The notes beneath the pieces are model-generated. The model had not been told where the DNA came from, did not search any database, and saw only the letters and a list, made by a program, of their open reading frames with translations. A stretch of 64,000 bases of DNA from Diphasiastrum complanatum. Lineage: Eukaryota > Streptophyta > Lycopodiopsida > Lycopodiales > Lycopodiaceae. Below, in pieces: positions 4,180 through 31,600 of the stretch. The number at the start of each line of letters is the position of its first letter. The stretch's first letter is position 1. Location of the stretch: positions 28,485,746-28,549,745 of the forward strand of contig CM055112.1 of assembly GCA_029204225.1 (NCBI GenBank), given 5' to 3'. The position numbers were made by a program, and so were the translations under genes.

Positions 4180-4247
4180 TATCGAACTCAAGCGCACTGT
4201 GAGAAGGTGGAAGCTTGAACGGTAAAAGAGCGCGCTTGAGAGCGATA
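4180..4247. promoter_or_regulatory. Inverted 17 bp motif pair, pair 1
   Basis: TATCGAACTCAAGCGCA lies on + at 4180-4196 and TATCGCTCTCAAGCGCG on - at 4231-4247, with a 34 bp gap. This is the first of a set of inverted pairs found through both copies of the multi-gene element. The gap sequence is not conserved between pairs, only its length. Confidence 0.7.
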
Positions 4248-4319
4248 TTGGGAGCTAAAAGCGAAAATTTTGAGAAAAAAAAGTGAAAATTCAGAGGACT
4301 TATATGAAAGAAATTTTTG

Positions 4320-4568
4320 CACGTGTGGAAAGACAACGAAGACACATGTCGTTGGATTATTAGGTCACGTGGAATGTCCGTACTGAAAATGATGACACAA
4401 TTATGAGGCCACGTGGGCTGAGACACATGCGCGAATCCGTTCTCGACGCGTGTCATTCTCGCACGTGACATATATCAGATCAATCATTCAAGGTACGACA
4501 CATTTATTTCGACCAATCACAAGTCAACACGTGTTCCTTCGCCACTCCTCCACACGTGCTTTATAAAT
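4320..4568 (+). promoter_or_regulatory. Cluster of six CACGTG boxes followed by a TATA-like box
   Basis: Perfect CACGTG palindromes (G-box core, bound by plant bZIP/bHLH factors) occur at 4320, 4366, 4410, 4462, 4528 and 4553, and a variant ACGCGTGT at 4446. A TATA-like TTATAAAT follows at 4561-4568. The arrangement reads as a plant-type promoter facing right into the CB gene. Function is inferred; no transcript evidence is available here. Confidence 0.5.
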
Positions 4569-4619
4569 TGGTCTTTTTTGGCTCGGATTTTTACGCAAAT
4601 TTACGATTGCTTTGTCGGA

Positions 4620-4850
4620 TATCGATTTCAAGCGCGTCGCTTGCTCTCATTACCCTTCTTTGACTATTTTGCGCCTGGATCCGATACTACATCGTCTGGT
4701 ATCGCATTCAAGCAGCGCGCTTCGAATCTCTTTTCTATTCTGCTATGTGTTCTTGCGCTCGGATCCGATACTCCAACTCTAAATATCTCTTTCGAGCACA
4801 CGTTGCCTTGACGTGCTTGTCTGACCTGCGGTTTGCGCTTGAGAGTGATA
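4620..4850. promoter_or_regulatory. Array of three inverted 17 bp motif pairs
   Basis: Plus copies start at 4620 (TATCGATTTCAAGCGCG), 4700 (with a 3 bp insertion) and 4784. Minus copies occupy 4670-4686, 4754-4770 and 4834-4850. Orientation alternates strictly +,-,+,-,+,-. Gaps within pairs are 33, 33-34 and 33 bp; linkers between pairs are 13 bp. The pair-to-pair period is 80-84 bp. An overlapping open frame (4578-4811) reads the period as a 27-residue peptide repeat, so a coding origin cannot be excluded, but the same spacing recurs at places with no such frame. Confidence 0.75.
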
Positions 4851-4919
4851 TTTGGAACTTTTAGTTCTGTTGTTTTTGTTTAAAATGTCTAATTTTGAAT
4901 CTAGTTTGCTTTTTTTTTA

Positions 4920-6391
4920 ATGAATTTGGTATTACTGATAGGTTGGACTATTTTAAATCTCTTTTTTCTCCTTTTCTTTTTATTCTACCTTCTATAACTG
5001 AGGGCCCTGGTGTGGAGGCATTTTCTGAGATATATCTCAAATTTAAGTCCCTGCTCAGTACTTAGTTATTCAGATCTCAAAATAAGGACATGATTCATTT
5101 TTTGGACCTAGTGGCACTCGACAAGCATATCTATAAAGCTAAGCTTGACAGAAGGTTTACCAAGTTACATAATGATTTCAAGTCTGTAGATGACTGCCCA
5201 ATTCATAATAAAAAATGTAGATTTGTTGATTTTCAGTCTACTTTTGTTTGTTTTCTTTTGTAAAATATTTCTGACGATTCGGAGGCTGTGCCCTCCACTT
5301 CTGAAGTAGCTTCTTCTAGTGGTACAAAGTCTGAAAAGTCAAAGATTGTAGATATAGATACTTTTTTTATTGATACGAGTGTTAATTTAGATGATTGTTC
5401 TGATTTTGATCCTGCTCGAAATAGGGCTGCTTTTATAGGCGCCCTAGAACATCCACTACTCTTTCTCCTTTTGATAGATCTTTGATCACTTTGCCTACTT
5501 ATAATATAGATAATAATTCCTTTTTGACAATATTGGATATATCGGATCTTTTTTACTTCACAAGGGCTGAGACTCTTTGCATTTTGAACAAAGAGCTTGA
5601 TGAATTTTTGGATATAATTAATTTTGATGCTAATGATTTTCTCCCTAGTGTTGACGATGTACAAAATAATAAGTTTTATTCAAGAAAAGATTGCTTGAAA
5701 ATGGCTATGGAGGAAATGCGCAACAAAGAAGATGATTTACCTTCTAAGGAGGAGTTTCTTAGAATCCAAAGTCAACTTGGTTTTCCACAGCCAACTGTCT
5801 ATTCAGCAACAATATTGACAGCGAAAGGTGGACATAATATTGATGGAGAGACAGTAATCAGGAAAGACAAAGCCGAATGCGTAAGTTTTTGTCTCTTATC
5901 AAGTACTAGTAGATTTGTTATGTCAAATTATATACCAAACCTTACTTTGCTTTTTATCATTTCAAGAAACAATTTTCCTTGATGATTTCGCAATTCGTCG
6001 AGGAGGGCAGAGATCTTCTGCTGGAGAATTTTCAAGAGATCATGCACTGGGACACTATCTGAAGTCCTTCAAGAATAATGAGATCAATGTTGCCCATTCA
6101 AAGTTTCATCAACATGGTGAAACTATGATTTTGACAATCAAGGCACTATCTCACATAATTTCAATAAGGTGCATAAAATAATTTTTTTTGAAGAAAACTA
6201 TTGCGGTTAAAATTTGAGGATATGGACCAGTGAATTCCATGCTCAGATCATCTCATTTTGCAGTGTATGTTGCTTACGTTGATTTGAGTAAGCATGAAAA
6301 CTATGAGCTATTGGATCCATATGAAAGAAGAAAATTATTGCATGATTCTAAGTTGCAACATTCATTGGAAAAAATACCGGAAGCAGATTAG
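4920..6391 (+). pseudogene. Unknown gene 'CB', copy 1 (decayed, spliced)
   Basis: I do not recognise this protein family. Coding stretches run from a motif DRLDYFKSLFSPF near 4940, through an acidic serine-rich part (about 5285-5440), a Leu/Asp-rich part (5485-5880), then DDFAIRRGGQRSS (about 5980), HGETM..IKALSH (about 6115) and SSHFAVYVAYVDLSK with a closing DPYERRKLLHD before a TAG at 6389-6391. A GT-AG intron at 5881-5966 falls where the copy-2 gene also has an intron. Stops and frameshifts (near 5073, 5262, 5440, 5967, 6165 and 6215) make it a pseudogene. The 3' end converges on gene A at 6441. The protein has no signal peptide or membrane span that I can see; it is mostly hydrophilic. 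Three copies in the window agree over the DFAIRRGG-to-YVDLSK part, which supports a once real protein. Confidence 0.65.
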
Positions 6392-6440
6392 ATACTGCTG
6401 AATTGTACTTTGTAAATATTTTTATTTAATATACAAAATT

Positions 6441-7770
6441 TTATTGTGTGTCTATATATAGCCTACTGGCTTGTATAAATTTGCATGCTTTTTGAAAATT
6501 TTTATAATCCGTCGATTTTGTATTATGACGAATTTGGATTCTTCTGTAAAACCATTGAAAAAGTTGTAGTATATAGCTGGTTTTTGTGCTAATCCCGCCA
6601 TGTTGTGTACTTTTATTAAATGTCGCTCTTGCTTGCCAATGAGATTTTTCCATGTCTTGCGATGACGATATGCTAAGACTTCCACTATTTCTTGCAAAGA
6701 ATGTTGAATAATGTCGTAATATGTGTTGCATGTCATAAAAACATAATCTAAATCAGTACCAAAAGTATCTAATTTATTTGCACATTTTTGTATATCGTAG
6801 TGTAAAATCAAAATCTTACCATATAATGTGTTATATGATCAACACCCCATGCACTTTGAACTACAACCACAAATTCATTGGTTGTTTTCTGTATCATTTG
6901 TACATTCGTATTTAAAAATTTATCTTGTCTCAAGTATTTCACCATGTTGTCTAACTTTTTCCAAACTTCTACTTTGTGTATACCAGTAGAACCTTCTTCA
7001 TCGAAATCTTGAGTTGCTACAATAATTTCTTTCCAAACCGTGTATTGAAACTTAGATTGTTTGCCAGAATGATTTGATAAAAATCTTCGAGCTTTAGATC
7101 CTCCAATGCTTGACTTGCATGGAATATTTCATGTTTTACCTGATAGCTTGTCATCTTTTTTTATTTTAACGTGGTCTTTATTTAGGCCTACTTTGGACAA
7201 CACATCCTCTAATCTGGAAATAGCTTCCTTCGTAGAGGCCTCTGGCTCAAAATTCCATGCAACCAAGAAGTGAAGATATATTATTTTTTCTATAATACGC
7301 ACCTCCGCATGCAATGTACAGATATGAACATTTCGTAGAGGAATCGGTAGTACAGGTTTCCAATTAGGATCTTCTCAATCTCTTGATATTCCTATACTCC
7401 TTGTCATGTCTTTTCTTGTTTTCATGCAGTAAAACAAGGGTGTTTAGAGTTAGCGCCATGAGATACATTGAACATACATTTTAATGTCTTCAGATCTCCT
7501 GCTAAATGCCATTCAATGTTGAAAGTGCCAATTCTAGGAATATTGAGTGGAACTCCTTCCATATGATTTTTTATGGTGGCAGGATATGATGTTCTATTAA
7601 ATATCCTTGAGAGAATGTTATGGTCTTCTTTCAGCACCTATAAGAGAATACAAAAACGTGATTAGCCTCATAGTATTAACACAGAGAAGATTTGGAGAGC
7701 TCCCAGCAATTTCATATCTTGCATGCTCAAGTGCTTTCCTCATGTCTCTTTGTTTAGTCACTTGTATCTG
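6441..7770 (-). pseudogene. Gene 'A' (DDE-transposase-like), copy 1, 3' part
   Basis: Reading right to left: a helical stretch RDMRKALEHARYEI (about 7740), WHLAGDLKTLKCMF followed by SHGANSKHPC (about 7440-7520), VHICTLHAEVRIIEK (about 7310), a DDKLSG segment (7140), KARRFLSNH (about 7080), VWKKLDNMVKYLRQDK (about 6930), WGVDHITHYM (about 6835), then after a short intron-like gap HILRHYSTFF and DMEKSHWQARATF..STQHGG (about 6600-6720). The Asp of GDLK and the Glu of MEKSH, with the Asp of KLDESEI in the 5' part, could form a DDE triad. HITHYM|HIL is split by an intron at 6722-6830 whose acceptor is mutated (AA for AG). Several frameshifts and stops. The 5' part lies at 13,570-13,800, separated by a gypsy element. 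Transposase is my inference from motif order; family name unknown. Confidence 0.6.
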
Positions 7771-7799
7771 CCATTGACGGGTTCATCTTTGGTTTCTTG

Positions 7800-9640
7800 G
7801 CAGATTTCATTTTTGGTTTCTTCTGGGAGGTCTGTATCCTCCATTTGCCTCTGGGTATTTCCGTGGTTCTTCTCTCAGTTGAAGTTCTAGTCTCAAGGAA
7901 AACCTTTGATCTGCAAGTTGCACAAACTTTGGTTATCAGTCTCAAGGAGATGGATTAATCAAAAACTGGTGGTAGGAACAGATTTGGATGGACGGTTTGA
8001 TAATGGTAAGGAAACATGATGAAGTCTTGGTGAAAGGATGAAGGAACTAATAGTTCTACAGTTGCAGCCTTGGACCCTTGCAATGTCGAGCTTTGACCAC
8101 CTATCATTGCTCTAGAGAGTTTCTTTTGATCAAGGTTGATCTGACTCATCTGTTGCTTAAGTTTTGTCCTTTCCTCCTCAGCTTCCTGGATCTTTCTTTT
8201 TATTTCTTCTAGCTGCTCGCCTGCTTTTGTAGGCCTTTTTCGGTCGAACAACCAATATAGGTGGTAGTTGGTCTCCACAAGACACTTGCAATGATCTATC
8301 ACTTGCTTCGGTAAGACTATCAAAGATTGGAAATTTCTCAGAAGAACAGTAAACTGATGATAAACAAACAGATGGAAGGGAGGGTGGTGGTGACAACGGT
8401 AGATGGTGTGGACGATAGACATGAGAATGGGCGCAGAAGTATGGCAAGAAGTTGGTTGAAGAAGGAGACTGATTTTCCAATGCTTGTCTTTCTCTTTAAA
8501 AAGTTTCTTCGTCGTGACTGGGGTACTTCTTCTTATCGAGTCGCTTTGGATTGCCCATCTGTCTTCTTAGCCTTGTCATTGTCGACTTTGGATTTGTGAA
8601 CTTGGCTGTCGATCTTGCTGTTGTTGTTGCTGGCAGCGTAACTGCTCCAGTGGATCCAAGCAGATCCACTCTCTCCCCCCCCCCAAAAAAAAATCTATTG
8701 GTGGGAATGTTGTTGCTGGTGACTATTCATGCTCAAGATTGGATCGACGTGTGGAACACGTAATTGAAACTCGTTGAATATGTGACTAGACTAAGATTGA
8801 ACAAATTTTAACTAAATTTGTTTCGATCTTGCTGTAGTTGACTCAAAGAATAATATGACAATGAGGTGCAGGAATCAACTCTAACTTGTCCATGGATTTC
8901 TGATATATCTCAAAAAATTCTAAACTGATGTACAAGATAATTTGAAGATGGATAAATGAATGAAAATGTGTTCTGGAGATGCTCTACAGAGGACTCTCAT
9001 GCAGTAGCTATTTCTCATGCAAAAATCAATCGCACAAAATAGGTGAAGAGATACAAGGAAATAAACAAACGTTATGGAGAGTTACAACTGTATGGCACTT
9101 GTCGAACAAAACTTGCACTGATCAACATTGATAAGTCACCGTGATAATTGGAATAGTTTATTTGTTTTGTAGAGTAATGATACTTACTCTCATATGCCCT
9201 TGTCAAAACAAGGCAGGGTTGGTGATACTAATATCTATCATCATGGATAACAGATGTTGTAAGATATAGCATGAGATGCAGGTATGGGTGAAGTACTATG
9301 TCCAGAGGACCTCGTCGAACAAGAGATTCAGAACCGAATCTCTAAGTGGATTTCTGAATCCTAGATTTGTTGTGTATTGGCACATTGAAAATCTTATCTG
9401 CATGTGGAAAGACAAATAGATTTGAGTTTGTAGAAAGAGAGAAAAACTGTCAATTCCCTGTGGAGGTTGCTCTTGGTTGGACATTGTAGTAGATGACGAA
9501 ATATCGGTTTTACTTTCTTTCGACAAAGACTCATTTCAAATTGTCTTTTTGCATTATAATATTGGCGTATTGGACGGTGATGTAGAAGTTTACAAGAAAC
9601 TTCTCGATCGAGCAGTAGGTTTAACTGTTGGTTGCTATGG
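7800..9640 (-). mobile_element. Decayed interior of gypsy insertion, no clear domains
   Basis: Lies downstream (on -) of the gag region and inside gene A. It encodes a charged coiled-coil-like stretch (EQLEEIKRKIQEAEEERTKL at about 8160-8220) and Gln/Ser-rich fragments, but I find no protease, RT, RNase H or integrase motif. The exact left border of the insertion is not visible; a matching 3' LTR was not found, so the element is truncated or the LTR is lost. Confidence 0.4.
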
Positions 9641-9643
9641 TGC

Positions 9644-13364: not shown

Positions 13365-13800
13365 TGGTCATTCCATCTTCCGAGATTCACCATGAGGCTT
13401 ACACAGTTCTTGCATGTCTTTCCTAGCTAGTATTTCTCGATTCTCAGTCTTCATTAGTCTCATCTTCTCAGAGACCTCCTCGGTCTCAGGTGAGAGGTGC
13501 TCTTGAGTTGCTTTGTCCGAGTATCTTGGGGATTCGTCAGAATCAGCCAACAGAAAGTGCTCCATTCATGATTGTGAGACTGACTCTTTCCATTTTTTGT
13601 CCTTTTATAATTTCAGACTCATCTAACTTATTTGTAATACTGTAAAAATTTATGATGAATGTTAATAACTGATTAATGTCAATAAATAAATTGTTGAAAT
13701 TGTTATAAGCTAGACTTTCTCCTTTCGAGCAATTCACTTCATTGATATGAGATGGATTACCAACTATTGTCTGCATACCATGGTTTAACATGTCTTTTTA
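13365..13800 (-). pseudogene. Gene 'A', copy 1, 5' part (left of break)
   Basis: Continues gene A on the other side of the gypsy insertion. It encodes GMQTIVGNPSHINEV at 13,790, then LAYNNFNNLFIDINQLL, then NKLDESEIIKGQKMERVSLT ending near 13,575. These match copy 2 (GMFKVVGQPLHIIDL, NYNDCNNVFLDIENV, KLDESEIIKGQKLEQVSVT at 26,072-26,310) over the same order and spacing. A one-base shift leads into a Glu/Ser-rich stretch (13,368-13,560) with no counterpart in copy 2. KLDESEI holds the candidate first catalytic Asp. It starts only 70 bp from the motif pair at 13,870, divergent from the H3-fusion gene. Confidence 0.6.
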
Positions 13801-13869: not shown

Positions 13870-13964
13870 TATCGCTTTTGAGCGCATTATCTCTTTTCGT
13901 AAATAATCTGTGTAGATCATGCGTCCAAAATCGATATTCAGTTATGGTATCGATCTCTATCGCC
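13870..13964. promoter_or_regulatory. Inverted motif pair plus one extra half-site upstream of H3-fusion gene
   Basis: TATCGCTTTTGAGCGCA on + (13870-13886) and TATCGATTTTGGACGCA on - (13920-13936) are separated by exactly 33 bp. After an 11 bp linker a third + half-site, TATCGATCTCTATCGCC, lies at 13948-13964 with no partner. The site lies between divergent gene A and the H3-fusion gene, about 80 bp before its start codon. Confidence 0.65.
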
Positions 13965-14044
13965 CTTTTACTACAAATTTTTTTTTTTCAACCATTTTTC
14001 TTTTGTTCAATTTTTTTTTTGTTAATCTTCTTCTTCTGAGAATG

Positions 14045-16138
14045 ATGGCCAGGACCAAATCCACTGCCCATGCCATAACCATAGTACAGCCATTCCATTT
14101 TCGTGTTCTCCCTGGTACTGGCCGTAGGCGTGGCATGAAGCAGGGGCTGAGGGAGATCAGAAAACACCAAAGATCAACTAAATTGTTGATCCCTAGAGCT
14201 CATTTCGGCCGATCTGTTGAGAATGTCACTCTGTCACTTGGGTTGAATGTTTGTTTTCTCGTGACAGCCATGCAGGCCTTACAGGGTGCTGCAAAAGATT
14301 TTTAGTCGTAGTTTTCTGAGGATACTTGTCTTTTGGCAGTGCATGGTAAGCGTGTCACCATCATGCCAAAGGATTTCGTCATTCTCAAAAGGCTTCGGGA
14401 CAGATATTTTGGTCTGCATGTTGATAATGCCAGCACCTCCAGAGACCTGCCTCTGGATAAAACCAACGTGCCTACTACCTCTAGGAGGAAGAGAAGGCAG
14501 TCTGTCCCCAAGAAGGCTAGATCTCGAAGGCCAGATGCTTCCATTCCTTGTAGACGTATCCCGGCCAAGAGACCCCTTGTCTTCCTGAGCTCTGAGTTAG
14601 ATGCTGGAAAATCTGACTCAAATAAAAAATCATTACCCCTTCCTCCTCCTGTTATTCTCCAGCTCCTCAACAAGTTTCATCACCAAAAGTGTTGATTACC
14701 CAAGAGGAGCTAAACAAAATAACAGAGAAATCTGTAAATATTATTTTCACTTCTATTACTGCTCCTGTACATAATCTTTTTGTAAGAATTCCATATGATC
14801 CAGCCCAGGTTTTTTTTTTATTTTGACCATTATAATCAATACGAGACCTACTTAGCTAACAAAATTGATCTTCTTGGCAACTTTTTTGATTTTTTTCTTC
14901 CAGATACACGTAGAAGCTTTAAAATAGCTCTCAAATTTTGTGCCGAGCTAAAAGATAAGACCTCAAAAATTTCAGATGTGATAGTAGAGGCCGGAGTTTT
15001 TTTTTTGTAGAATAGTATTAGTTTTGATTTCCATGGTACAGTTTTTGTTGTTAGTCCATTTTTCATGGGAGCGGTAAAGGCGAAAGAAGCCAATTTTGAG
15101 AAGGCTGTCTATTTTGTCGAGTGCAGTCCTCTGGTGAAATTTTATTTGATTCCATATGAAAATAAGTAAGGATTGCTCTTCTATTTTTGTTGCTTTAATC
15201 TGGATTGTTGCATGCTTCATTGCTTTAATAAGTACAATTTTTTTTCATAAATATGAATTTATTGATATTTGTATTTTGTTGTTGCAGTCGGCATTGGAGC
15301 CTAAACATTCTTTTTGTAAACATAAATAAGGAGAGAGTATCAAATTTTCTATGTGTAAAATTAAACTCAGTTGCAAATACACATAGAGAATTTGATTTTC
15401 TATTTCATGATGCCGTTCGGGAAATACCGACAACGACAACTTTAATTGGAGAGATAACCATTAAATCTCTCAAAGTATATTCAATTTATCTTTGATATGC
15501 ATGTATTTCTTTTTTAATTCAAATGTATCGTCATAGCATAAATAAAATTTCTATCATAATATTACTTATTTTTATTCTATGTATGTAGTGTGTACAACAA
15601 AACGACGCTTTTAGTTGTGCATGGTTCGTCCTATACAATACGAAGCTATTTTTTGAATGGTATAATTTACAAGTGGATGTAGATATTGAAAAGATAATAT
15701 TCTGTTCATTTGTGGTTCATTTCATTCTGATTCATATTTTTTTACTATAATTGTTTGTAATTTGTTGATTCTCGTGTTTTGTGATGATAGTTCACTCTTG
15801 AACTGTATACTCCTGATGATGTATATAGATTTCGGCAATAATTGATCAGAACCTATGCCCAGTACGGTGTAAGAGTTGCACCTGCAATCGAGGGCCCTCA
15901 AAAAGAAGCTGCTCCTGCCTTAACAACCTTTCAGGTTGCTCAGGATGCAGATCTTATTTTATATGATCAAAAAGAAATAAAAGTCCTTCCTAATACAGAG
16001 AAAGACAATTTTATAGCAGATATTCCTCTTGTCTTAAAAGGCATTGAGGCCCTTCCCGAAACAGAGGAAGATGAGATTATAGAAGGAGTTGTTGCCTTAT
16101 CAGTTCCTAATACTGATATAGAAAATATAGAAAATTGA
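14045..16138 (+). pseudogene. Histone H3-fold fusion gene, copy 1
   Basis: Starts MARTKSTA (14045), close to the histone H3 N-terminus MARTKQTA. After a shortened tail, GLREIRKHQRSTKLLI aligns with the H3 alpha-N/alpha-1 region, and AVHGKRVTIMPKDF (about 14,338-14,380) with the H3 C-terminus AIHAKRVTIMPKDI. The join aligns residue for residue with H3 except for two in-frame stops (14302-14310). A basic tail (RRKRRQSVPKKARSRRP) follows, then a long unknown part with frameshifts (EELNKITEKSVNIIF at 14,707; YFVECSPLVKFYLIPY near 15,110-15,160). GT-AG introns at 15166-15287, 15475-15588 and before 15791 connect further exons (FVNINKERVSNFLCVKLNS; NKTTLLVVHGSS; RTYAQYGVRVAPA) to a TGA at 16136. 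H3 wraps nucleosomal DNA; the fused part is unknown. Copy 2 at 29,367 shares the downstream exons. Confidence 0.75.
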
Positions 16139-16490: not shown

Positions 16491-16492
16491 AA

Positions 16493-17772
16493 CTATTCAT
16501 AAAAGATCAAGTGTTTACAGTTACTTACGAGTTTACCATTGAAAATGAATTTGAAGTCTGAAAGTCCATCATCTTGTAGGAGCAATAGTTCCCGCCGGAT
16601 GTAGTTTAGACTCCAATCTTCTTCCACCTCAACACATGTCAAAATGGCATCATTGTATATAATTTCAATATTTTTTCGTTTTGAATGTCCACTGGCTTCC
16701 AAGTCTTGATCGAGTGGCACCCATTTACTTTTATTTTTTTTTCATCTTTGATAATGGGAGCATAAGCTCAACATTTGTTTTTCAATTTGATAAAGGAAGC
16801 ACATGGAAGACATTTTAATTTTGCATTATATTTCTCCATCTGATCTTTTGTCCCAACCTTCATCCATAAGTTCAGATAATAAACTATTTGATAAATTTTT
16901 GCATACAAACATCGTTGGAGTTTTGTGTACATTGACACTTGAAAAGAAATCCACAAATATATTCAAGGAAATAAACCAACTCAATCTGACTGTTTTTTAT
17001 CTCGTGCTCATTTTTAATGAATTTTTTACATCATTATATATCTTGCAACGAAATGATTTTGAAACTGTAGCATCTAGTGCAACCCATTCATTACTTTCAA
17101 AACTAGGTAATGGAATTGGTACTATTTGTCCAAAATTTTCTTGTATCAAGAATGTACATTGATTCATAAAAAAAGATCCCACTATCAACTAGATCTTTTG
17201 CAGTTCTACCTCGATATTGCAGCTGTTTAATATTAGTGTGAATAACATCTAACACACCTGCTAAAGATCCACTCGACTCCCATTCATTTATATTGGATGG
17301 ATATAAATCTGCAAGAGAAAAATGATTAGATTGGCAAGTTTACTATCAGATATTTATGAATGAAAAAAATCAAAGTATCAAAAATATCAATACTCATAGT
17401 TGTTTTTTTTGTAATCCTGACGGTTGAATCCTTGCACATTTATCTCTGAATGCATATATACATGTTGGACTAGAATTTCAAAAATAGATTTCCTCTTGAT
17501 GATGTTCTGAAATCCAAAATTTTGGCCCTCCAATAAGATCAAAATGATAGTTTTGACCTCTTCCTTTTTCGAAATGCTCCTCTTGATGATGGATGCATCA
17601 AAACCCAAGAGTTTTTTGAATATTTTCTTGGCACCCATAATCCATTATCATCTGTCTTGTTGAATAGAAGCACAGAGTTGATTGAGGAGCACAGCTTCCT
17701 TGATGGCGCCATTCGTAATTTGCATAAAAAAATCTGAAACAATGAACTATGAATCTGAAAATTTGCCCCCAT
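16493..17772 (-). pseudogene. Unknown spliced gene 'D' (decayed)
   Basis: Not recognised. On -, coding-like pieces in order are LGFDASIIKRSISKKEEVKT (about 17,600), IFEILVQHVYMHSEINVQGF (about 17,440), an exon after a TCTTGCAG acceptor at about 17,310 reading LYPSNINEWESSGSLAGVLD and GIFFYESMYILDTRKFW, then a frame change to SFESNEWVALD (about 17,100), and lastly IEIIYNDAILTCVEVEEDWS with SDFKFIFNGKLVS (about 16,520-16,670). The last piece has the size and pattern of a small beta-grasp-like domain, but that is a guess. Sense is broken by stops. It converges on the H3-fusion gene, so it may be a fourth gene of the element; no second copy was found in the window. Confidence 0.45.
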
Positions 17773-20700
17773 GAATTTGAGAAAAAGTGTTGGCGAAAAT
17801 TTGAAGCACTGATCTATTTGGCGTCACAACTTAACTCTGGTCAACCCAGTTAACCATGGTTTGACAATGCATATACATTAATGGTACATCAATTTTCTCA
17901 TCTCAACCATCTGTCATATTCATTTTCAATATTTTTGGGTCTCTTCGGGTAGTGATGAGCTAGAAGGGCAGGCCTCATCAACCAATAGCATTTCCATATG
18001 CTGCCCGACAAAACAACAATATATTGAAAAAGTTTTTATTTTATTTATATTTGGAAAATTCTACGTTACGTAGAACCTCGAAGCTAAGGTTTCAATTGGT
18101 CCACATGGCAACGAAAATAAAGAAAAAAAATAAAAAAACATCTTTTTCAAAGGCCCTCGTCGGGCTCTAAGTTTCTCTAATGCAATGTTTCCGATGTTGT
18201 GTAAATGAATTTATGAGATGCATTGTTTTCGAGTATTAGTTTCCAAGTCTACTTTGATTCTTATTTGATTTTCATTTAAAATTCAAGACTTGCTTTATGT
18301 GAATGATAAGCCAATAAATCTTTTGGCCTTTAAGAACTTAGGACAGGTCTTCACCCTTGAGTTCACACCATATTGGGCCTAACTCTAGTTTGACAGGTGA
18401 TAGACTAGTTAAGTGACACTTGTCGAGCCCATGCAGTTTGGGGCTTTGCTATATGTACAATGTTTCTTCATAATAGAGTTAACTTTTGTTGTGCCATCTT
18501 TGAGAGCTTGTGAGGAGTGGCTACGATGATTGATTAATGTAATCTGCAAACTACACTAGATTTCATCGGAATTTTAAACGGCATGAGTGTTGCTATCATT
18601 GCATAGAAGATGAGAGTGCCATATTGTAAAGACCACTAGGGAAAACCCCTAAGATGAGGATAGAAAAACACAATAGGAGACACATAGGAGCAAAACTTCC
18701 CAACCAAACCTAGATCTAGCCCCTGAGCCATGCCATGTGAAAGCTAGAGGAGAAGAGAGCAACTGGTAACCTGAACCAAGTTGTCAACGAGAGAATCTCT
18801 ACCTCAATATATAGAGAAAAGATTGATGTGCATGAACCCATACAATTCCCATGCAGTCCAACTATAAATAGGTCACATCTCTTCATGCAGTCCTCCTACC
18901 TATATCTGTCACACACGTACATGCACTACTCCATATGTCTCAATTAGAGTGTCTGGGTCCTCTCAAAATTATTAGTCACAAATAGGCCTCGACATGGAAT
19001 TAAATATCGGAGTGCCTAAAAAACTCGAATACCGGAGGGCCGGTTTACCATATTAGGACTATTCCATGTTTTTAACAGAAAATGGCCATGACACATGTGA
19101 AGTAGAGCAGATAATGATTTGCATGACTTCTTGCATAAGAGTGAGGAACGAGGGTGGCAAGGTTGTTAGATCTTAGAGAAATAGGGCTTTATCCTTTTGC
19201 TATACATGGTCATTAATGCAAACCACATCAATATGATCATCTTTAAGCTTGGATCCATGAGGAGTATAAACCCTTTTGTTATTGCCTCCTCACATCACAA
19301 CACCACCATAGATGACACGATCGTGGATGCATCCCCACCATACGTGACACGATCTACTGGATTGTCCAAGACACTTCTAGTTGTTGGTCGCCTATTCCTA
19401 ACCCTAATCGGCATCAAGGTGCAACTTGAGGTGACACATCTCCTTTAAACAAAAAGCCTTTATGTTCTCAATTCATAGTACTTGGTCAAGTGGGAGGTAA
19501 TTTTGGTTTCCACCTTTCACGTCTATTTTGACATTTGCATGGTATGCACATTTTTTTGCTTTGCACTTTCACATTGTTAGTTTACTTATTTGTATTGTGA
19601 GGTAAGTAGTAAGGAAAACGTAACCTCAAATAATCTGTACCATGATCTTACAAAAGCAAGGTCTGCCATATGTGCACATACGTTACTTGTTTCACATGTC
19701 TTCAATATAGTAGCTAGTTTTTAATAATAGTGGCCACTTTACAACTGTGGTGATCAATATATATGATTTAGAAAGCCTTTACATCTAGAATATTAAGGTA
19801 AAGGGAGAAATGATGTTGGGTGTAATTGGTGGAAGGCAGTGGGCACCTTAGGATGTGTGTAATTGGTAGAAGGCACCTTTGTGAACATGGGTGTGGCTAA
19901 GTCAACGTTTAAGGTTATTCGAAAAGCTCGAGAAGCTGTAAAAGGCAAAGCTAGGACCAACTTGGTGCCATCTTTAGTGTATGTATATTTGTTCATATTA
20001 AACTAAGGTTGTCAAAAGTAAGAATTTATAATGTCTTGAATAATCCTTTCCCATCTCAAGAGGAAGATCATGAACATGCAAAGTCCATCACCCAACTATT
20101 TTTGTACAGGGAGGGCAGCACAAAGTTAATGAAAAAGACCCATCTAAAAAAGAAAAGCATATTATGATGGAAATTAAAGGCTGAAAAGTGACAATATTGG
20201 CCGGCAGAGATATGGCAGGAAAACAACGCGTGGCCCTGGACCCTAGCGATGGTCTCCGGTGTTGGTCTAGCCTTGTACATGAATAAAATCCCTGCTTTTT
20301 TTTATATCTTGTATAATGTACTGAAGGTGGGCTGTCAAAAGGAGATGTGTGGAGGAGGGACATTGCTTTTTGGTGGTGTATATTTGGGAGATGCGTGGAG
20401 CAGAGCACATCTATACATAAAGTACTGAATAAACATATATATCTTTTGACTCAAGAACAAGAAAGGGATCGCAACTTTTGAAGAAGCACTAGCTTAGTTT
20501 CAGACGACTTTCAGTATGTACCCCTGTGTAACCTACTTTTCCTAACAAGACACCAACAAGAATTGGGACTGGAACGCCATTGCCCCACCACTATGAGTGA
20601 CGCTCATTCCCACCGCATCACCTTTGTGTATAAAATGATAAAAACGCATATGGGTTTTTTTTTTCCAAGATTTCCATATCGGATTTATACTATGGCCTTT

Positions 20701-21430: not shown

Positions 21431-21434
21431 TTGT

Positions 21435-22015
21435 CCAACATGCAATTTGGACGCCTACTTTTGGCAAATTATTTGAAGTAATTTGTTGTGGGAATTTTGG
21501 TTGTTAAAAATTTGACTGATTTGGAATTATTTGACTTCATTATTACTTAATTTTTGTGACATGATATTCTTGTGCGTTAATGACCATTGGTATAAATCAT
21601 TTAACATATTTATGTCCCAATGGCCATTATGCAACTTGGACACCTACTTTTGGCAGATTATTTGAAGTAATTTGTCGTGGAAATTCTATTAATAAAATTT
21701 GACTGATTTGGAATTATTTGACTTCATTATCAGTTTATTTTTTTCACATGATATTCTCGTGCGTTAATGACCATTGGTATAAGTCATTTGATATATTTAC
21801 CTCTCAATGGCCATTATGCAATTTGGACACCTACTTTTGGCAGATTATTTTAAGTAATTTGTCGTGGAAATTCTATTGATAAAATTTGACAGATTTGGAA
21901 TCATTTGACTTCATTATCACTTTATTTTTGTCACATGATATTCTCGCACTAACTAATTGCATTAATGACCATTGGTATGAAATCATCTAATATATTTACC
22001 TCCCATGGCCACTAT
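21435..22015. repeat. Three-unit tandem repeat, period about 188 bp
   Basis: The phrase 'ttgga(c/t)(g/a)cctacttttggca(a/g)atta' occurs with its 'gg' at 21449, 21638 and 21825 (periods 189 and 187). Each unit also carries 'tttgac.gatttggaat.atttgacttcatta' and 'gcgttaatgaccattggtat'. Non-coding and about 90 percent similar by eye. Looks like a small satellite array. Confidence 0.8.
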
Positions 22016-22718: not shown

Positions 22719-23045
22719 TTAAAACTTACTCAAATCAACATATGCAACATACAATGCAAAATGTGATGATCTAAGTATAGAATTCACTAGTCCATATCCT
22801 AAAATTTTAAGTGCAATAGTTTTTCTAGCAAAAACTATTCTATGCACCCTTGTAAAATTATGTCCTCCAAGAAGATGAGAAAGTGCCTTGATTGCCATAG
22901 TCATTGTTTCACCATGTGGAATGGGCAACAATTATTTTACAATTCTTGAAGATCTTCAGATAATAGCCTAGAGCATGATCTCTTTGAAATTCACCAACAA
23001 GAGATCTATGTCATCTTCGATGGATTGAAAATTTATTAAGATAAA
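22719..23045 (-). pseudogene. Unknown gene 'CB', third copy (fragment)
   Basis: Reading left on -: a fragment of GEFQRDHALGYYLKIFKN (about 22,945-23,010), then HGETMTMAIKALSHLLGGHN, VHRIVFARKTIALKILGYG and SSHFALYVAYVDLSK ending near 22,722. It matches CB copy 1 (5,990-6,295) and copy 2 in the same order. One frame change near 22,920. No H3 or A sequence was found beside it, so it is an isolated piece of the element. This is the least-broken version of the middle of CB and is useful for aligning the family. Confidence 0.65.
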
Positions 23046-23069
23046 GGGTTTTCTAAAATAAAAAGAAAT

Positions 23070-25180: not shown

Positions 25181-25187
25181 CCAATTT

Positions 25188-26640
25188 GTGTCCAGATTTC
25201 AAGTCCATAACTCATTTTCTCATATTTGTATGCAGCGAATAGCGGATTACTTGGATATTGTCAAAGGTTGTGGGATATTTGAATGCATAGTGTATCTTGT
25301 CTTAATCAGCAATTACAGTTTGCTAATCAACAATTGCAATGTGCAAATCAACAATTGCTTCATTATGTGCAACACACTAGTGCTAAAAACAATGCACTCA
25401 AGCATATTATATCAGAGTTGAATGCTACAGTCACTAGTCTTTGAGGCTCAAACCAAGATAAGTTAGAAATTATAGAGAAGTTGCGACCTGACAGTTTAAA
25501 ATCTATTGTTGACATACAAGTTTTAAAAAAGAAAATGATGAAAAAGAAAAAAAGAAAAAAAGAAAAAAGAGTACCAATGAAGAATATTGATGACTTATCC
25601 AAACATAGTGACAATTAGAAAAAAAGGATTTGAGCATTTAAGTATATTTTCTTATAAACTGTTTATTTGAATCGTATTTGTCATTTAAGTTTGATTTGCA
25701 ATTGATAACATGCATTATTAATTTATTAAACATAATTTGAGTTTTATATGTTTGTTGCAGATCATGTTTGGTGGCAAAGAACTATTTAACAGATCGTTCA
25801 TGCATTGGAGAATCTCTAAGTCATGTTTTACTAAGAAAGTTAGCAAAGGCAATGATGAAAATGCTTGGTTTAAAAAAATGAAAAAAGAAATTGTAGAGAC
25901 TTTTCTGAATAAGGTTCAAACTTACTTGGTGCATGTGATGTTTCTGGAATTAACAGAAATGCTTATTCTATTTTTTCTAGAATAGTTAAAGAAGCCTTTT
26001 CTCAAGTGATGGTGAAACAAACTTATCTTTCTCGTCCATATCGGGTAAGATTAGTTATAAAATATTATAATGACGGAATGTTCAAAGTAGTTGGCCAACC
26101 ACTTCATATAATTGATTTATATAAATCAGAATGTGGTGAGCTCAATTACAACGATTGCAATAATGTTTTCCTTGACATTGAAAATGTTTCAAAATACATT
26201 ATTCGATTCTTAAACTAGACAAACATAAAGTAAATGGAGAGATTATTATTGTAATGAAATTAGATGAATCCGAAATCATCAAAGGTCAAAAATTGGAACA
26301 AGTGAGTGTCACTTTGATGAACAAAATTTCAGATACCGATGATCAAACGTTTAGTGTTCAATTGGAAAATCACATATGGTGGTTGGCTGCATTTCAGATA
26401 TACTTTCAAATTCTGTGGAACAACTTAGACAAACTCATAGGTATTATCAGAAAAGAAAACCTGTCATCAGAAGATATGAGGGCTTTGCAAGATCATTGCA
26501 CCACATTTGTAAAATCTGTACGAGATTGTTGGGGAGAAGATCATGTTACACATTACATTTATGGTATTGATCTAATTCATGATTATATTTATTTTGTCTG
26601 ATGTTGCCAATTTCAACTAATTTCAACTCTTGTTTGCAGC
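25188..26640 (+). pseudogene. Gene 'A' (DDE-transposase-like), copy 2, 5' part
   Basis: An N-terminal Gln/Asn-rich coiled-coil-like exon (about 25,290-25,615: CLNQQLQFANQQLQCANQQL, closing in a Lys-rich run) is followed by an intron with acceptor TTTGTTGCAG at 25,759. Then GACDVSGINRNAYSIFSRIV (about 25,930), YRVRLVIKYYND, GMFKVVGQPLHIIDL, NVFLDIENV, KLDESEIIKGQKLEQVSVT (26,256) and FSVQLENHIWWLAAF. Next come LWNNLDKLIGIIRKENLSSE and WGEDHVTHYIY, where an intron (26,564-26,639, GTATTG...TTGCAG) falls at the same place as in copy 1. The GDLK...HPC and MEKSH parts are missing, removed between WLAAF and LWNNLD or beyond the CB junction. Frameshifts near 25,900 and 26,218. Confidence 0.6.
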
Positions 26641-27773
26641 ACATCTTTTCATCATCTCCAAGTTTGAGATGCATGGTATTGTCATGAAGGAACAATCTCC
26701 TTTCATATGGAGCTAAAAACTATATATTTTTCTTTTTGCTCATGTCTATATATCTCGACTAAAGGGCTATTGAAGATGATCTTTTTGTGGGATCTTCAGG
26801 GACATAATCAAGTATTTTAATAGCTAGATCCCTCTAAACAAAAACAATTTTGAATGTTTCTTTTGCATAATTGTGGCCTCCTAAGCAAACATACAATGCT
26901 CTAATTGTCGTTATAATGGTTGCGGTGAATGGACTATAACTCATATATGATATATACAAATTTTGCTATTTACAAAAAATTTCAAATAGTGGGCAAGGGA
27001 TGTCTCCTTGTGTCCAACAATTGCCGATCCCTCGCGAAGACCTCCACGTCTAATAGCAAAGGAATCTACTTCAATGGTATTCTAGAAAAAAGTGCAATAA
27101 GAGATATATTTAGATTAAAACATGAAAATCACAATTACAAAAAATAGAACAATAATTAAGGGATTAGGTCATAGAACAATAACTCACAAGATCGTCTTCA
27201 TTGAAACCGACCATATTTTCTGTTGTAATGTCGTGGCCACCACTAGACTCTTTAGTTCTCACTACTTCATGATGATTCCTTGGTGGATATCTTTTCTGAA
27301 ATTCCAAAAATTCTTCTCCACTCGGCAAGGTTTCAGAATAAGCTTTGTATTTTTCCATCATGGCATACAGCCTCCTTGCTAGATTTCTAGTTGCCATCCG
27401 TCACAATATCAATCTTGGGCTTGAGATCATCATAATCATAATTAATAATATCATAAAATTCTAACAATTCTTTCAAAAAAATTGAAAAGATTTCATCTTC
27501 TCTCAAATCAAAAACATCTTCAATATCATTGAACGATATATAATAATCATTATTTATAATATATACAATTGTCTATATCTATATGAGAGGTTGTAATAAC
27601 ATGACCAAATTTATCAAGAAGATCAACAAGCTAAAACCGATTCTCATAAACTAACTTATCAATATCAAAAGTAGAAAAGAAAAGGGAAATAAAGTAATCT
27701 ATTTGTTCGAAGGGAATTTCACTGATAGCTAAGAATTTCCTCAGTTTATCCTTGGAAGATGTAGAGGTAGCCA
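26641..27773 (-). pseudogene. Unknown gene 'CB', copy 2
   Basis: Start codon at about 27,773 (MATSTSSKDKLRKF, then FEQIDYFISLFFSTFDI, matching DRLDYFKSLFSPF of copy 1). After a decayed part come MMEKYKAYSETLPSGEEFLE and GGHDITTENMVGFNEDDL (27,190-27,350). A GT-AG intron at 27,082-27,187 leads in phase into NTIEVDSFAIRRGG (copy 1: TIFLDDFAIRRGG). Then HKETSLAHYLKFF, IRALYVCLGGHNYAKE and LAPYERRLFLHDN near 26,690. Several stops. The shared intron position in two diverged copies shows the family was once a spliced, expressed nuclear gene. Converges with gene A, as in copy 1. Confidence 0.65.
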
Positions 27774-27807
27774 TAGTACTATTTGTAAAGCTTAAAAAAA
27801 AAACCAG

Positions 27808-28005
27808 TCTAGCTTCAACGCGCGTAGACACGGGTGCAACCAAAAGCAAATAAAAAATGTGCATTGATTCGATATTACAAGAAAACAACCTTATTTCAAT
27901 TGAACGCGCAATAGGAAATGATGGTAGTTGACCTGTAAATGATATTGGTTCAATGCGCAGGAGACATGTGAATCCAGGATACCTAGCATGCGTGTTGAAT
28001 CGATA
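27808..28005. promoter_or_regulatory. Inverted motif pairs upstream of CB copy 2
   Basis: Pair one: TCTAGCTTCAACGCGCG (+, 27808-27824) and TATCGAATCAATGCACA (-, 27858-27874), gap exactly 33 bp. A lone + half-site TTTCAATTGAACGCGCA is at 27894-27910. Pair two: TATTGGTTCAATGCGCA (+, 27943-27959) and TATCGATTCAACACGCA (-, 27989-28005), gap 29 bp. The cluster starts 35 bp from the CB start codon, the same setting as the cluster before CB copy 1. Confidence 0.65.
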
Positions 28006-28439
28006 CATGAAGGAGAACAGGGAGAGCAAAGGCTTCATGAAAAAAGATAGTAAACTGAAAAAACTTCGAACTGAGGCCACATTTGTATATATAAAAATTG
28101 GCCTAAATTCTAGATGTACACCTGTCAAATATTCAACTGGTAGATTGGGCAAAAAACAACGACCAATTGAAAACGTACACATGGGGTTATAACACGCGCA
28201 CATTTAGTAATCATCATTACAATAGTTGGCATGAAATTCCATAATTTATGGGATCAAAATTCAAGGCATTCGTAATATAACACGTAGCAAAAAAAGTATT
28301 AAAAAAATATATTACGGATTTCCACCAGATCCTATAATTTATGAACGTCACTTTCGAGGCTGACATAACCTGAGACATACCCAATGATAATTACAAATCT
28401 TAATGAAGGCATTAATCATTGGCTACATGTCCCATCCCC

Positions 28440-28470
28440 CCTCCTCTTATATAAATACAAATTCCAAACC
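28440..28470 (+). promoter_or_regulatory. TATA-like box upstream of H3-fusion copy 2
   Basis: 'ctcctcttatataaatac' at about 28,439-28,457 is a plant-type TATA box, preceded by a CCAAT word at 28,380 and a second CATTGGC at 28,416. It is about 900 bp before the H3 start codon, leaving room for a spliced leader. Inference from sequence only. Confidence 0.4.
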
Positions 28471-28619
28471 GAAATTTTTTTTGAACCTCCTCGTTCACTA
28501 GCTCACTCTCTCAGTTGCTTGATCACCATCGATTCAGTGTGCATTCCGCAATCACCCTCACTTGCATCCTCTCCTCTGTAATCAATAATCCACCATATTA
28601 TATTATTTTCTAATTCTGA

Positions 28620-28685
28620 TATCGATTCAGGGCACGGACTTATCTCTCTTGAGCTGCCAGGGTCTCTTTGCACGTTCAACCGATA
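28620..28685. promoter_or_regulatory. Inverted motif pair, leader of H3-fusion copy 2
   Basis: TATCGATTCAGGGCACG (+, 28620-28636) and TATCGGTTGAACGTGCA (-, 28669-28685), gap 32 bp. A weaker + half-site CATCGATTCAGTGTGCA at 28527-28543 has only a degenerate partner word 33 bp on. Confidence 0.6.
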
Positions 28686-28822
28686 TTGTATGGATACCAA
28701 GTGTTATGTCCATGGCCAACAAGTAGGATTCAGTATACTCCTAATCTTGGATACACGTTACTCCAGTAAATCAAGCTGTTAGTTATGCCACGTCATACTG
28801 GATGTGACCCAAAAGTAACTAA

Positions 28823-28983
28823 TATCCTTGTGAGGCCCATAACACACTAAAGGGAGTTTAGACAAGGTATGAGATAGTGTATGCATGTGTAGAGTTATCA
28901 AGGTATCCTTGTGAGGCTCAGAACACACTAAATGGAGTTTAGACAAGGTATGAGACAGTGTATGCGTGTGTAGAGTTATCAAT
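28823..28983. repeat. Two-copy tandem repeat, 81 bp
   Basis: The segment starting 'tatccttgtgaggc' at 28823 is repeated at 28904 with a handful of changes ('ggagtttagacaaggtatga' and 'gtgtagagttatcaa' in both). Non-coding. Confidence 0.8.
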
Positions 28984-29299
28984 AGCAATTCTATGAATAG
29001 TTGGTCCATGATTAGGACTCTATTCTAGGTGAATCTATGTATAGGAAACTTAGGGCTATGCATGGCTATGTGCCCAAGTTGCTTTGGCCTCTATATATTG
29101 AGGCCAGACTCGCCCTACTCCTCATTGTGGTCATTGATTCATTGCCAGGGTTTCACTCTACCTTCATGTTTCTTATTCCTTGGCTTGGGGGTTGATTGGT
29201 TGCTTCCACTTGGTTGGGTGGTCGCTCCATAGTGTATTTTCCATTGTGTTTTGTCTTGTAAACAGGATATTAGGAAGCTTTCCTTATACCAAGTATCGA

Positions 29300-29365
29300 T
29301 ATCGATTCAGCGCGTATTACATGAATCCTCATGTTTGTAGAACTTTCCTACACATTCAATCGATA
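29300..29365. promoter_or_regulatory. Inverted motif pair directly before the H3-fusion start codon
   Basis: TATCGATTCAGCGCGTA (+, 29300-29316) and TATCGATTGAATGTGTA (-, 29349-29365), gap 32 bp. The right half-site ends one base before the ATG at 29367. Confidence 0.65.
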
Positions 29366-29366
29366 C

Positions 29367-31600
29367 ATGGCGTGTACAAAACAGACTGCTAGACTCAGCT
29401 CAGGAGGAGTGCCTTTACACGTTGCTGCTGGATTAGGAGTACCACCACCACCTGCACCTCCTCCTCCTCCTCCACCACCCCCACCTGATGGGGACAAGGA
29501 GCACCACCACCATCTTCACCTCCACCTTCATTTCAAAGACAACACGCTGCACCAAGGAGAGTGGGTCGGCTCATAGACCCGCATGGCTAAAAGATATCAA
29601 GAAGCTTCAAAAAGAAAGAAACCTTCTAATCCCAAACGCTCACATGCAAAGATGCATTAAGCAGGTGACCAGGGAGATTTCAGCAAATGTGAGGTGGGTT
29701 GTGACTATAGTTGAAGTACTGTACGATGCTTATGAAGATTTTCAAATAAAATTCTGTCTAATTGTGTGGTTGCTGCAGTACATGCAAAAAGAGTAACAAT
29801 AATGCCCAAAGATTTTGTGTTGATTTTTCATATGAGAGAGGCATACAATACGTTTGTCCAGAATTTCCATCCAACAGATTTTGCTCCACCAGTTGCTCCA
29901 CCAACAACATCTGCTCCACCAGTCGTTGCCACCACTTCAGGGAGAAAAAAAAAACAGGTCCAACCAAAGAGGCTATTAGCAATCATTCAACATATTGTTG
30001 TGAAAAAGAGAAGATCCACAAAGCCTCCAAAGAAAGTGAGGGTTGATATAAAGTGAGGGCTAATATAAAGCCAGTGACCCCATTTTCCTTCTTCTTCCTC
30101 TTCCAAATCCTCATCCAAGTCATAGAAATCAGTTTCTCTATCTCCCCCCCAAGACAAGGAAACCCCCTCCCATATCGCCCCCCCCCCCCCCCAAGACACA
30201 GAAATCTCTTTCCAAATCTCTTGGAAATTCTGTTTCCAGATCTCTTTTCAAGTCTTCCAGATCTCCTTCTAAATCAGTCCATAGATCTCCTACCAAATCT
30301 CTTTCTTCTAAATTAGTTTCTAAATCTCCTTCTAATTCAGTTTCTGAATCTCCCAAATCTCCTAAATCACCTCCAAAATCTATTGAACACTCCACACAAC
30401 TCTCTTCTCCAACTCGCCCTAAAGGTGCATAATTAGATTCATTTTTGAATGTGCAGATCAATATTTTTTTTTCGGACGATAGATTGAGTCATGCATATTT
30501 ATCTCTTCATGCCCCTCCTTCATTATCTTTTGAATAAACAATATATATGATCAGTATTATCAATTACTTTTCACTCATCTTAAATCTTTCGGCAAACATT
30601 AACATTTTCAATCTCCTCTTTGGAGTGTATATGTTTTGGCATTATATGTAAATACCGATGGCATAGGCAACCCAATGTGCATAAAAATGAATTCAATCTC
30701 GCACATGCACAGGGCTACAAAAAAACTTATACGAATGTTGATTGAATATTTTCCTATGCCAACTGCAACGGCATACACGAAACTGAAGTGGATAGATGCA
30801 AAGGTGATTTTTGTATTCCTTTTTAACATCTGAAATAATGGTTCAGCACGCATTTTCATTTTTTGAATTTAACTGACACTCACGGCGCATATTGAAATGA
30901 TATCTCATTGTTTTTCATTTTCAAATTTCTAATATCAATTCAACGCACACTTGCAATCTTTGTAAAATTTCATTCATATCCTCACATGCTTAAATGATAT
31001 CTCATCATATGCTAGTACATTAACACATTTTTCTGTTTTGTTTGTTTGTGCAATCCTCTCAACAACAAGATAATGTTAGTTGTGGATGGTATACAATCTT
31101 CAATACGAAATCATTCGTTATGTGGCTCACTCAATAGGACTCTATTCCAGATATACAACATAGCGATTCCCAAGTGCTTCTGTAGACTGTGTAGAAACAT
31201 GAATAAAACTATAGAACTGGATAGGTCATATATTTATTTAGGAAATTTTCGTGAATATATTATTGTCAGTTATAAGATAGTCCTTGTCATATTCTCGACA
31301 TATGTTTCTAATCCAAGTTTTCTTATGAAATTTGTTTTCTCAATTTTCTTGCATGCCAGTCATACCACAAGGGATTTTGCAATTTCAGCATGAAGCTTTA
31401 AAGATATTGGTGAAAAATTCCTACCCTGTAGATATTCCATATGCTAGTCCAGCAGAGGAAGGTTCTTTTATCTGGAGAACTAGATATAGAAATCATAGAG
31501 CCAAAGGTAGATTATATAGAAAAATAAATGGTCTCCTTTCAAGTGGAAGAGCCAATATGTATTTCACATCTACAGAAAGTTTTATAAAATTATATTGAGA
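29367..31600 (+). pseudogene. Histone H3-fold fusion gene, copy 2
   Basis: Starts MACTKQTARLSSGG, nearly the canonical H3 tail MARTKQTARKSTGG. A proline run (about 29,443-29,486) replaces the middle of the tail. After frame changes, WLKDIKKLQKERNLLI and VLYDAYEDFQI match the H3 helices, and AVHAKRVTIMPKDF (about 29,778-29,819) matches the canonical H3 C-terminus. A basic extension (SGRKKKQVQPKR; TKPPKKVRVDIK) follows. The next open frame (30,190-30,429) is very rich in S-P-x-K type repeats (SPSK, SPTK, SPKSPKSPPKS), like the DNA-binding tails of linker histones. Downstream exons (LYVNTDGIGNPMCIKMNS at 30,640; NKIMLVVDGIQSSIR at 31,066; a final exon near 31,380-31,500) match copy 1. Two motif pairs lie in the intron at 30,836-30,999. 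Stops and shifts make it a relic. Confidence 0.75.
30836..30999. promoter_or_regulatory. Two inverted motif pairs in an intron of H3-fusion copy 2
   Basis: Pair one: TAATGGTTCAGCACGCA (+, 30836-30852) and TATCATTTCAATATGCGC (-, about 30885-30902), gap about 32-33 bp. Pair two: TATCAATTCAACGCACA (+, 30933-30949) and TATCATTTAAGCATGTG (-, 30983-30999), gap exactly 33 bp. They follow a splice donor at 30804. The matching intron of copy 1 has no such pair. Confidence 0.6.

Follow-up and report, generated by a model that had tools for sequence, protein, structure and literature searches.

Inverted pairs of a 17-bp half-site at nearly fixed spacing in a mobile element family of Diphasiastrum complanatum: putative protein-binding arrays between divergently transcribed genes

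The window analyzed here, a 64,000-nucleotide stretch of the Diphasiastrum complanatum genome (contig CM055112.1, positions 28,485,746 to 28,549,745), contains two copies (A and B) of a multigene mobile element in which inverted pairs of a 17-bp half-site, separated by about 33 bp, are stacked between two divergently transcribed genes. The inverted pairs are real, and the list of places given in an initial annotation of this DNA is borne out with corrections. Comparisons within the window and with other loci of the genome identify one element family with four genes, designated TP (gene A of the initial annotation), CB-E, H3-fusion, and F. The sites, their spacing, their constraint, and their location are observed directly; from these we infer protein binding, the element as the encoder of the protein, and the direction of control. 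Judged from the sequence, the arrays are real, constrained, element-associated, and geometrically unusual, and are putative protein-binding sites; a protein of the element probably binds them to control the element's own promoters.

The half-site has the form TATCG-N7-GCGC-R, with TATCG outermost and GCGC innermost, and the halves are paired tail-in across a gap of mostly 33 (32–34) bp. There are two lineage forms, in which the central TC step is shifted by one position. The motif string printed in the initial annotation, TATCGATTCAAGCGCA, has no match in the window at up to 3 mismatches because it is one base short (16 letters, the true half-site being 17 bp). Eight of the pairs listed there are strong, but that at 4700 has an insertion in its left half and those at 30836 and 30933 are weak by score; stronger pairs follow the same exon in three loci sampled elsewhere in the genome (L022, its near-duplicate L040, and L053). 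The pairs of the window, which carry no strand, are as follows.

4180..4247, strong inverted pair, gap 34, equivalent to the CB-proximal one of two H3-side pairs in other copies
4620..4686, first inverted pair in the leader of CB-E, copy A, strong, gap 33
4700..4770, second inverted pair in the leader of CB-E, copy A, with a 3-bp insertion in the left half that is not in the 5 other aligned copies
4784..4850, third inverted pair in the leader of CB-E, copy A, strong, gap 33, with its end 34 bp from the ATG
13870..13936, strong inverted pair in the leader of H3-fusion, copy A, gap 33
27808..27874, strong inverted pair of the CB-E leader, copy B, gap 33, lying 33 bp upstream of the ATG
27943..28005, strong inverted pair of the CB-E leader, copy B, gap 29
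28620..28685, strong inverted pair of the H3 leader, copy B, gap 32
29300..29365, strong inverted pair of the H3 leader, copy B, gap 32, with a single base between it and the H3-fusion ATG
30836..30902, weak inverted pair, gap 33, following the HW exon of copy B, probably in an intron
30933..30999, weak inverted pair, gap 33, at the location of the preceding pair

As had been claimed, gap length is kept while gap sequence is not, the identity of the gaps between pairs being 27.7% versus 26.7% in shuffles. The proposal that both half-sites lie on one face of the helix is only approximately correct, because the 50 bp from center to center represent 4.76 turns at 10.5 bp per turn, and exact helical phasing is not supported. 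The reported position of a half-site one base before the H3-fusion ATG holds for copy B (site end 29365, ATG 29367).

With a ten-position core of the half-site, 25 plus-strand and 14 minus-strand sites with at least 8 of 10 matches are present in the window; 8 of the 10 convergent pairs with gaps of 0–99 have gaps of 29–34, and 8 divergent pairs are scattered. When a matrix trained only on the seven half-sites of 4180–4850 was applied with gaps of 20–50, the next-ranked pairs were those at 13870 (gap 33), 28620 (gap 32), 27943 (gap 29), and 27808 (gap 33); lower ranks were occupied by echoes of the training cluster, an unrelated pair at 3372 (gap 47, 12.8 bits), and then the 29300 pair (gap 32, 11.5 bits), which the unrelated pair thus exceeds once gaps of 20–50 are allowed. 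The five pairs beyond the training cluster (at least 11 bits, gap 29–34) compare with a mean of 0.09 and a maximum of 2 in 300 dinucleotide shuffles, in agreement with the earlier expectation of more pairs than in random sequence; it should be noted that the top single shuffle score, 19.0, is higher than those of two of the five held-out pairs (18.8 and 11.5). Scans of the window with Rfam (gathering scores) and for tRNA returned nothing.

The half-sites are also constrained between copies. In alignments of up to six copies, the mean mismatch is 0.118 in half-site columns versus 0.243 in gap columns (permutation p 1e-4), and it is also below that of other columns (0.196, p 0.001). Broken down by part of the half-site in three pairs, the mismatch is 0.086 for TATCG, 0.121 for the middle, and 0.161 for GCGC-R. 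The two arms of a pair do not appear to vary together: in eight window pairs, they match at 14.1 of 17 positions within a pair versus 14.2 of 17 across pairs, with the observed pairing reached in 413 of 576 permutations, and the corresponding p values in the sampled lineages are 0.26 (A-type, n=23) and 0.99 (B-type, n=31). Since the arms match no better within than across pairs and the gap letters are unrelated, they are more likely to be read as DNA, each arm more likely by the same kind of module, with the 33 bp representing a distance. An RNA hairpin in the 5' leader, with 17-nucleotide arms and a 33-nucleotide loop acting in translation or RNA stability, would suit the leader position of many pairs and the complementarity of the arms at their TATCG and GCGC ends, but it is very improbable because left-right covariation is seen neither in the window nor in the sampled lineages.

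The occurrence of pairs beyond the window was investigated by searching the 1.74-Gb genome with the 15-mer TATCGATTCAAGCGC at up to 3 mismatches, which gave 11,489 and 11,708 places versus 6,673 and 6,671 for the reversed control. There are 56 listed places with 0–1 mismatch, of which 36 were read (L008–L015 as loci, and L020–L047); ten stretches at 2-mismatch places on C1 (L048–L057), several chosen for a recurring match string, were added, and in all 42 further stretches were read beyond the first eight loci. The sample was chosen by half-site matches and so is neither genome-wide nor a survey of host promoters. The first eight loci, picked by a single half-site match, include two with pair arrays (L008, L012) and six without. 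Pairs are present at 11 of the 36 places read with 0–1 mismatch (L008, L012, L020, L021, L022, L025, L033, L034, L035, L040, L047) and are lacking at the other 25, so that it is common in the genome for a single half-site match to have no mate.

For the pair counts, L001–L015 were left out (L008 and L012 overlap L016–L019, and the other six are pairless) and L021 and L040 were dropped as duplicates. The counting matrix was built from 17 window half-sites, so the 9 window pairs are not independent of it; the outside loci were unused in training, though most were picked by half-site match and several are related copies. The 41 de-duplicated sequences (315,908 bp including the window) contain 63 pairs with a score of at least 20 when gaps of 20–50 are allowed: 35 with a gap of 33, 14 with 34, 7 with 32, and seven with 26–31 or 37. 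Fifty-four lie beyond the window, in 14 loci that correspond to 12 places (L016/L017 and L018/L019 adjoin), and in this half-site-selected sample, they show the predicted peak near 33 bp, at 33/34. Twenty-six sequences (156,026 bp) are pairless. The reversed matrix produced 0 pairs, and column-shuffled matrices produced 0 in 18 of 20 cases and 1 in 2 of 20. The pairs are consequently not confined to the two copies in the window, as had been thought, since further copies in the genome also carry them: recognizable element genes are present at 1e-4 in 11 of the 14 loci with pairs, and two others (L019, L025) have no element gene by tblastn at 1e-4 but have an H3-like start by pattern. Successive pairs less than 160 bp apart have a period of 77–95 bp in 22 of 26 cases and 118–135 bp in 4 of 26, and 13 of the 26 linkers are of 13 or 15 bp.

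L020 and L021 (C3:80.66 Mb and 80.84 Mb) are element copies about 170 kb apart whose opposite orientation and identical pair scores suggest a recent inverted duplication; the array at 2469–3860 of L020 has been enlarged to 7 pairs through segmental duplication of the region, and the units at 1–170 of L019, alike in sequence with an 84-bp period, likely represent a recent array expansion.

The gene order in other copies is TP (forward), CB-E (reverse), pair arrays, and H3-fusion (forward). In window copy A, L034, and L048, F is located on the far side of H3-fusion. The order TP, CB-E, arrays, and H3-fusion is retained in copy B. Copy A is rearranged: its homology stops at ~4178, the outer edge of the 4180 pair, and the break corresponds to the linker that elsewhere separates the equivalents of the 4180 and 13870 pairs. 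By eye, the edges of this junction (4178 and ~13850) have a short TATAGTT in common. Described initially as two copies of one element, A and B represent two diverged lineages of a larger family. The element is presumably a large DNA transposon; a comparison of flanks found no terminal inverted repeat. Its genes in the window, and the features associated with their promoters, are as follows.

4560..4568, plus strand, TATA box of the CB-E gene, in 7/7 aligned rows
4885..6388, plus strand, CB-E gene of copy A (broken, apparently with introns)
6455..7637, minus strand, C-terminal part of TP, copy A, with ~6 kb containing retroelement gag-like open reading frames before the middle part
13546..13797, minus strand, middle part of TP, copy A
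14042..15747, plus strand, H3-fusion gene of copy A, with a divergent H3 fold and then exons carrying HW and QQNDxxSC motifs that resemble those of Ulp1-like cysteine proteases (motifs by eye)
16496..17823, minus strand, gene F, downstream of H3-fusion, pieces of which recur in L034 and L048
25722..26598, plus strand, TP gene of copy B, middle part missing, with KLDESE motif
26660..27774, minus strand, CB-E gene of copy B
28448..28457, plus strand, TATA box of the H3-fusion gene, copy B (by eye)
28702..29288, no strand, insert resembling a solo long terminal repeat, with flanking CCAAG direct repeats, parting the two H3-leader pairs of copy B (by eye)
29367..31150, plus strand, H3-fusion gene of copy B, with tail ACTKQTARL, in which position 9 is L

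In the 8 de-duplicated loci that contain both genes, 35 of 39 pairs are between the CB-E and H3 starts, an interval that makes up 15,124 of 43,894 bp, and the statement that pairs sit beside gene starts is thus supported. The remaining 4 pairs (L022, L053) directly follow the HW exon of H3-fusion, the place of window pairs 30836 and 30933. Many pairs are located in leaders, from TATA box to ATG. On the CB side of the A lineage, all 7 aligned rows (two being repeats within L020) have a TATA box, ~50 bp upstream of the first pair, and ~35 bp separate the end of the third pair from the ATG. Of the 6 rows on the H3 side, 4 show a TATA-like stretch (L034 is deleted there and L020b begins inside). 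In the B lineage, the distance from the end of a pair to the H3 ATG is 1 bp in the window, 10 bp in L022, and 12 bp in L019.

The location of so many pairs between TATA and ATG, where a bound protein would hinder elongation, could reflect an autorepression operator at which an element protein, just downstream of the transcription start, stops polymerase as does the TNPA suppressor in En/Spm; PMC2613891 portrays TNPA bound to subterminal repeats as sterically blocking RNA polymerase. We regard this as possible, although unlikely, in view of the pairs that lie after the H3-fusion exon and in the mid-region, and it leaves the loss of lysine 9 from the H3 of the element, described below, unexplained. 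It is also conceivable, but quite improbable, that the pairs are internal copies of a site for a TP transposase or recombinase, or are replication or packaging sites. Copy A is broken in a linker between two pairs, and in soybean a CACTA element carries a subterminal 17-bp motif that is two-part and occurs in both direct and inverted orientation (PMC2613891); however, in the copies read, the arrays are flanked by two genes, beyond which other element genes lie on either side, and the TATAGTT shared at the copy A junction fits ordinary repair. The packaging or replication role suggested previously finds no support in the scanned protein pieces, which contain no capsid or polymerase family beyond those of retroelements.

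In the mechanism that we favor, the two half-sites facing each other across ~33 bp would constitute one 67-bp unit for a dimer or tetramer, each half-site having two parts, an AT-rich TATCG outside and GCGC inside. The units are stacked between the divergently transcribed CB-E and H3-fusion genes and, in one lineage, also lie after the H3-fusion exon. A protein encoded by the element would land on these arrays and act on the element's own divergent promoters, probably keeping them free of host silencing in a VANC-like manner; the bound protein is less likely to be an autorepressor or a component of a transposition complex. The spacing-constrained, element-associated site beside gene starts is of the kind needed for the dimeric or multimeric protein proposed in the initial annotation, but packaging, replication, and exact phasing are not retained. 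The one-base shift of the TC step appears as if the reader protein had diverged with the site, and two lineages with shifted half-site forms would be expected if the sites follow a lineage-specific protein.

Several observations weigh against this mechanism. The GCGC-R block is the least constrained part of the half-site, perhaps owing to its CpG, and the copies are related, so that the constraint could partly reflect gene conversion. L022 has several pairs outside leaders, in the mid-region, and L035, whose pair has a gap of 26, has neither an element gene nor an H3-like start. The scanned element pieces contain no Pfam DNA-binding domain except bZIP_2, at E 0.57, in a coiled-coil piece. The lack of an element binding protein in Pfam scans, together with the TATA boxes in the promoters, could instead indicate that a host transcription factor binds the TATCG-N7-GCGC pairs and that the element borrowed its sites. 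This is improbable, given the element genes in 11 of the 14 sampled loci with pairs and the different half-site forms of two lineages in one genome, a divergence not expected from one host factor.

TP has five relatives among proteins from lgn and ena sources, the best with 84% identity over 49% of the query, and the motifs KLDESE, GDLK, and HAEVRIIEK are present in TP of the window, in the relatives, and in the copies. We take these motifs to be the D-D-E of a DDE-type transposase, for which Pfam and structure models gave no confirmation: no Pfam transposase family was found in the TP pieces scanned (short exons), models of TP exons were poor (predicted local distance difference test scores of 33.5 and 45.9), and sequence comparison of TP pieces with solved structures gave 3 and 1 matches, weak and unrelated. 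The short pieces of TP, CB-E, H3-fusion, and F that were scanned have no tnp2 or TNP1 match in Pfam, and weak Pfam matches (Gemini_AL3 at E 0.1 and others) were taken as chance. Protein searches with the GDLK piece and the CB piece returned 7 and 44 candidates, respectively, none of which was scored. Viral relatives were considered and rejected: the gapped-pair pattern has 7 matches in viral contigs, about the estimated chance number, none of the 7 stretches contains a matrix pair, and three element protein pieces have no relative in these contigs.

The H3-fusion protein has a histone fold for which 2 of 4 pieces match Pfam PF00125 above the curated cut-off (E 5.9e-6 and 2.3e-7) and 2 below it (3.7e-4 and 0.1), and which is nearest to H3/CENP-A by sequence matches in the PDB. 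The exons that follow (15232–15747 and 30603–31150) have, by eye, HWSL and QQNDxxSC motifs in the window and some copies, with LWS instead of HWS in the copy B exon. We presume a likeness to the Ulp1/C48 cysteine protease signature (His-Asp/Asn-Gln-Cys); the window exons have no match to C48 in Pfam (copy A exons) or in the PDB. The distinct H3 starts found are as follows.

Window copy A, ARTKSTAHA (14042–14075)
Window copy B, ACTKQTARL (29367–29393)
L017, ARMKSTARA
L033, ARTKSTARA
L034, AKTKSTTRA
L019, ARTKQTSQR
L025, ARTKQTARL
L022 (L040 is a duplicate), AQTKQTTRI
L048, AQTKQTT*I

Lysine 9 (K9) is absent from all 9 of these starts, being replaced by A in one lineage and by L, I, or R in the other. 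The search pattern required lysine at position 4 and left position 9 free, so the retention of K4 is not evidence; no H3 start was found with this K4-requiring pattern in L020, L021, L047, L053, or L054. Because most copies are broken and the downstream tail is not H3-like, K9 may possibly have been lost by drift or decay. In plants, H3K9 methylation marks silenced transposons, and an H3 without K9 would accordingly favor an anti-silencing role. A further extension is that a protein on the paired sites brings the K9-less H3 of the element to its promoters, where it would block H3K9 methylation or jam the methyltransferase; in that case, wrapping in a special nucleosome would account for the 67-bp unit and for the usual 77–95-bp period, which is about one gyre of nucleosomal DNA. 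We consider this private chromatin doubtful, and joint action of the arrays and the H3 does not follow from the absence of K9 itself.

The arrays can be compared with two characterized types of plant element, to neither of which the present family is assigned here since orientation or location differ. The closer precedent is VANC, the anti-silencing protein of VANDAL transposons, which binds its motif and removes DNA methylation; TNPA of En/Spm comes second. The motif of VANC21 has 9 bp, YAGTATTAY, and is arrayed in one orientation, and VANC motifs occur in the introns of VANB and VANC as well as upstream of VANA, changing by tandem repeats (PMC5735166; PMC10398659). The arrays described here resemble these in being short, element-specific motifs that are dense in noncoding DNA, upstream and intronic (the intron in the present case being deduced from exon positions), that vary by tandem duplication and differ between related families. 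They differ from VANC21 in that a two-part half-site of 17 bp is arranged in inverted pairs, with a gap that hardly varies, rather than in a single orientation; also, no Mutator-type transposase (VANA) was recognized in the short TP exons scanned. In En/Spm (PMC2613891), the element protein TNPA binds motif arrays and can also block polymerase. The likeness to En/Spm CACTA elements is in the repeated motifs, which there have an element-encoded DNA-binding protein, and in the 17-bp two-part motif of soybean Tgmt*, in direct and inverted copies; the motifs there are subterminal, whereas 35 of 39 pairs here are between the CB-E and H3 gene starts. The window has 5 near-matches to CACTA termini versus 3.84 expected, which is chance level.

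VANC and TNPA are models for the self-protection or control of plant transposons through repeated sites, of which these arrays would be another example, with an unusually rigid geometry; the same element also encodes a K9-less H3. Variants of H3 of the K9M type have the silencing lysine replaced, and K27M and K27I variants are mentioned in PMC6562757. The tail of the element H3 resembles these in its replaced silencing lysine and differs in being encoded by a mobile element, in the change of K9 to A, L, I, or R, and in being part of a larger fusion protein that has protease-like motifs. Should the arrays and the H3 work together, a transposon would escape silencing by supplying an unmethylatable histone. 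Literature searches, with many journals outside their coverage, gave no description of such paired-site arrays or of a transposon supplying its own unmethylatable histone among the titles and abstract openings listed.

We know of no description of a transposon that evades silencing by this means.

The E part of CB-E is present in the window a third time, as a fragment (22722..23067, minus strand). Other repeats are two Copia-type retrotransposons in opposite orientation (39259–41409 and 43757–47801), a tandem array of ~566-bp units (846–2542), a tandem repeat of ~187 bp (21432–21944), and long CT/GA microsatellites on opposite strands (32128–32296 and 49932–50116).

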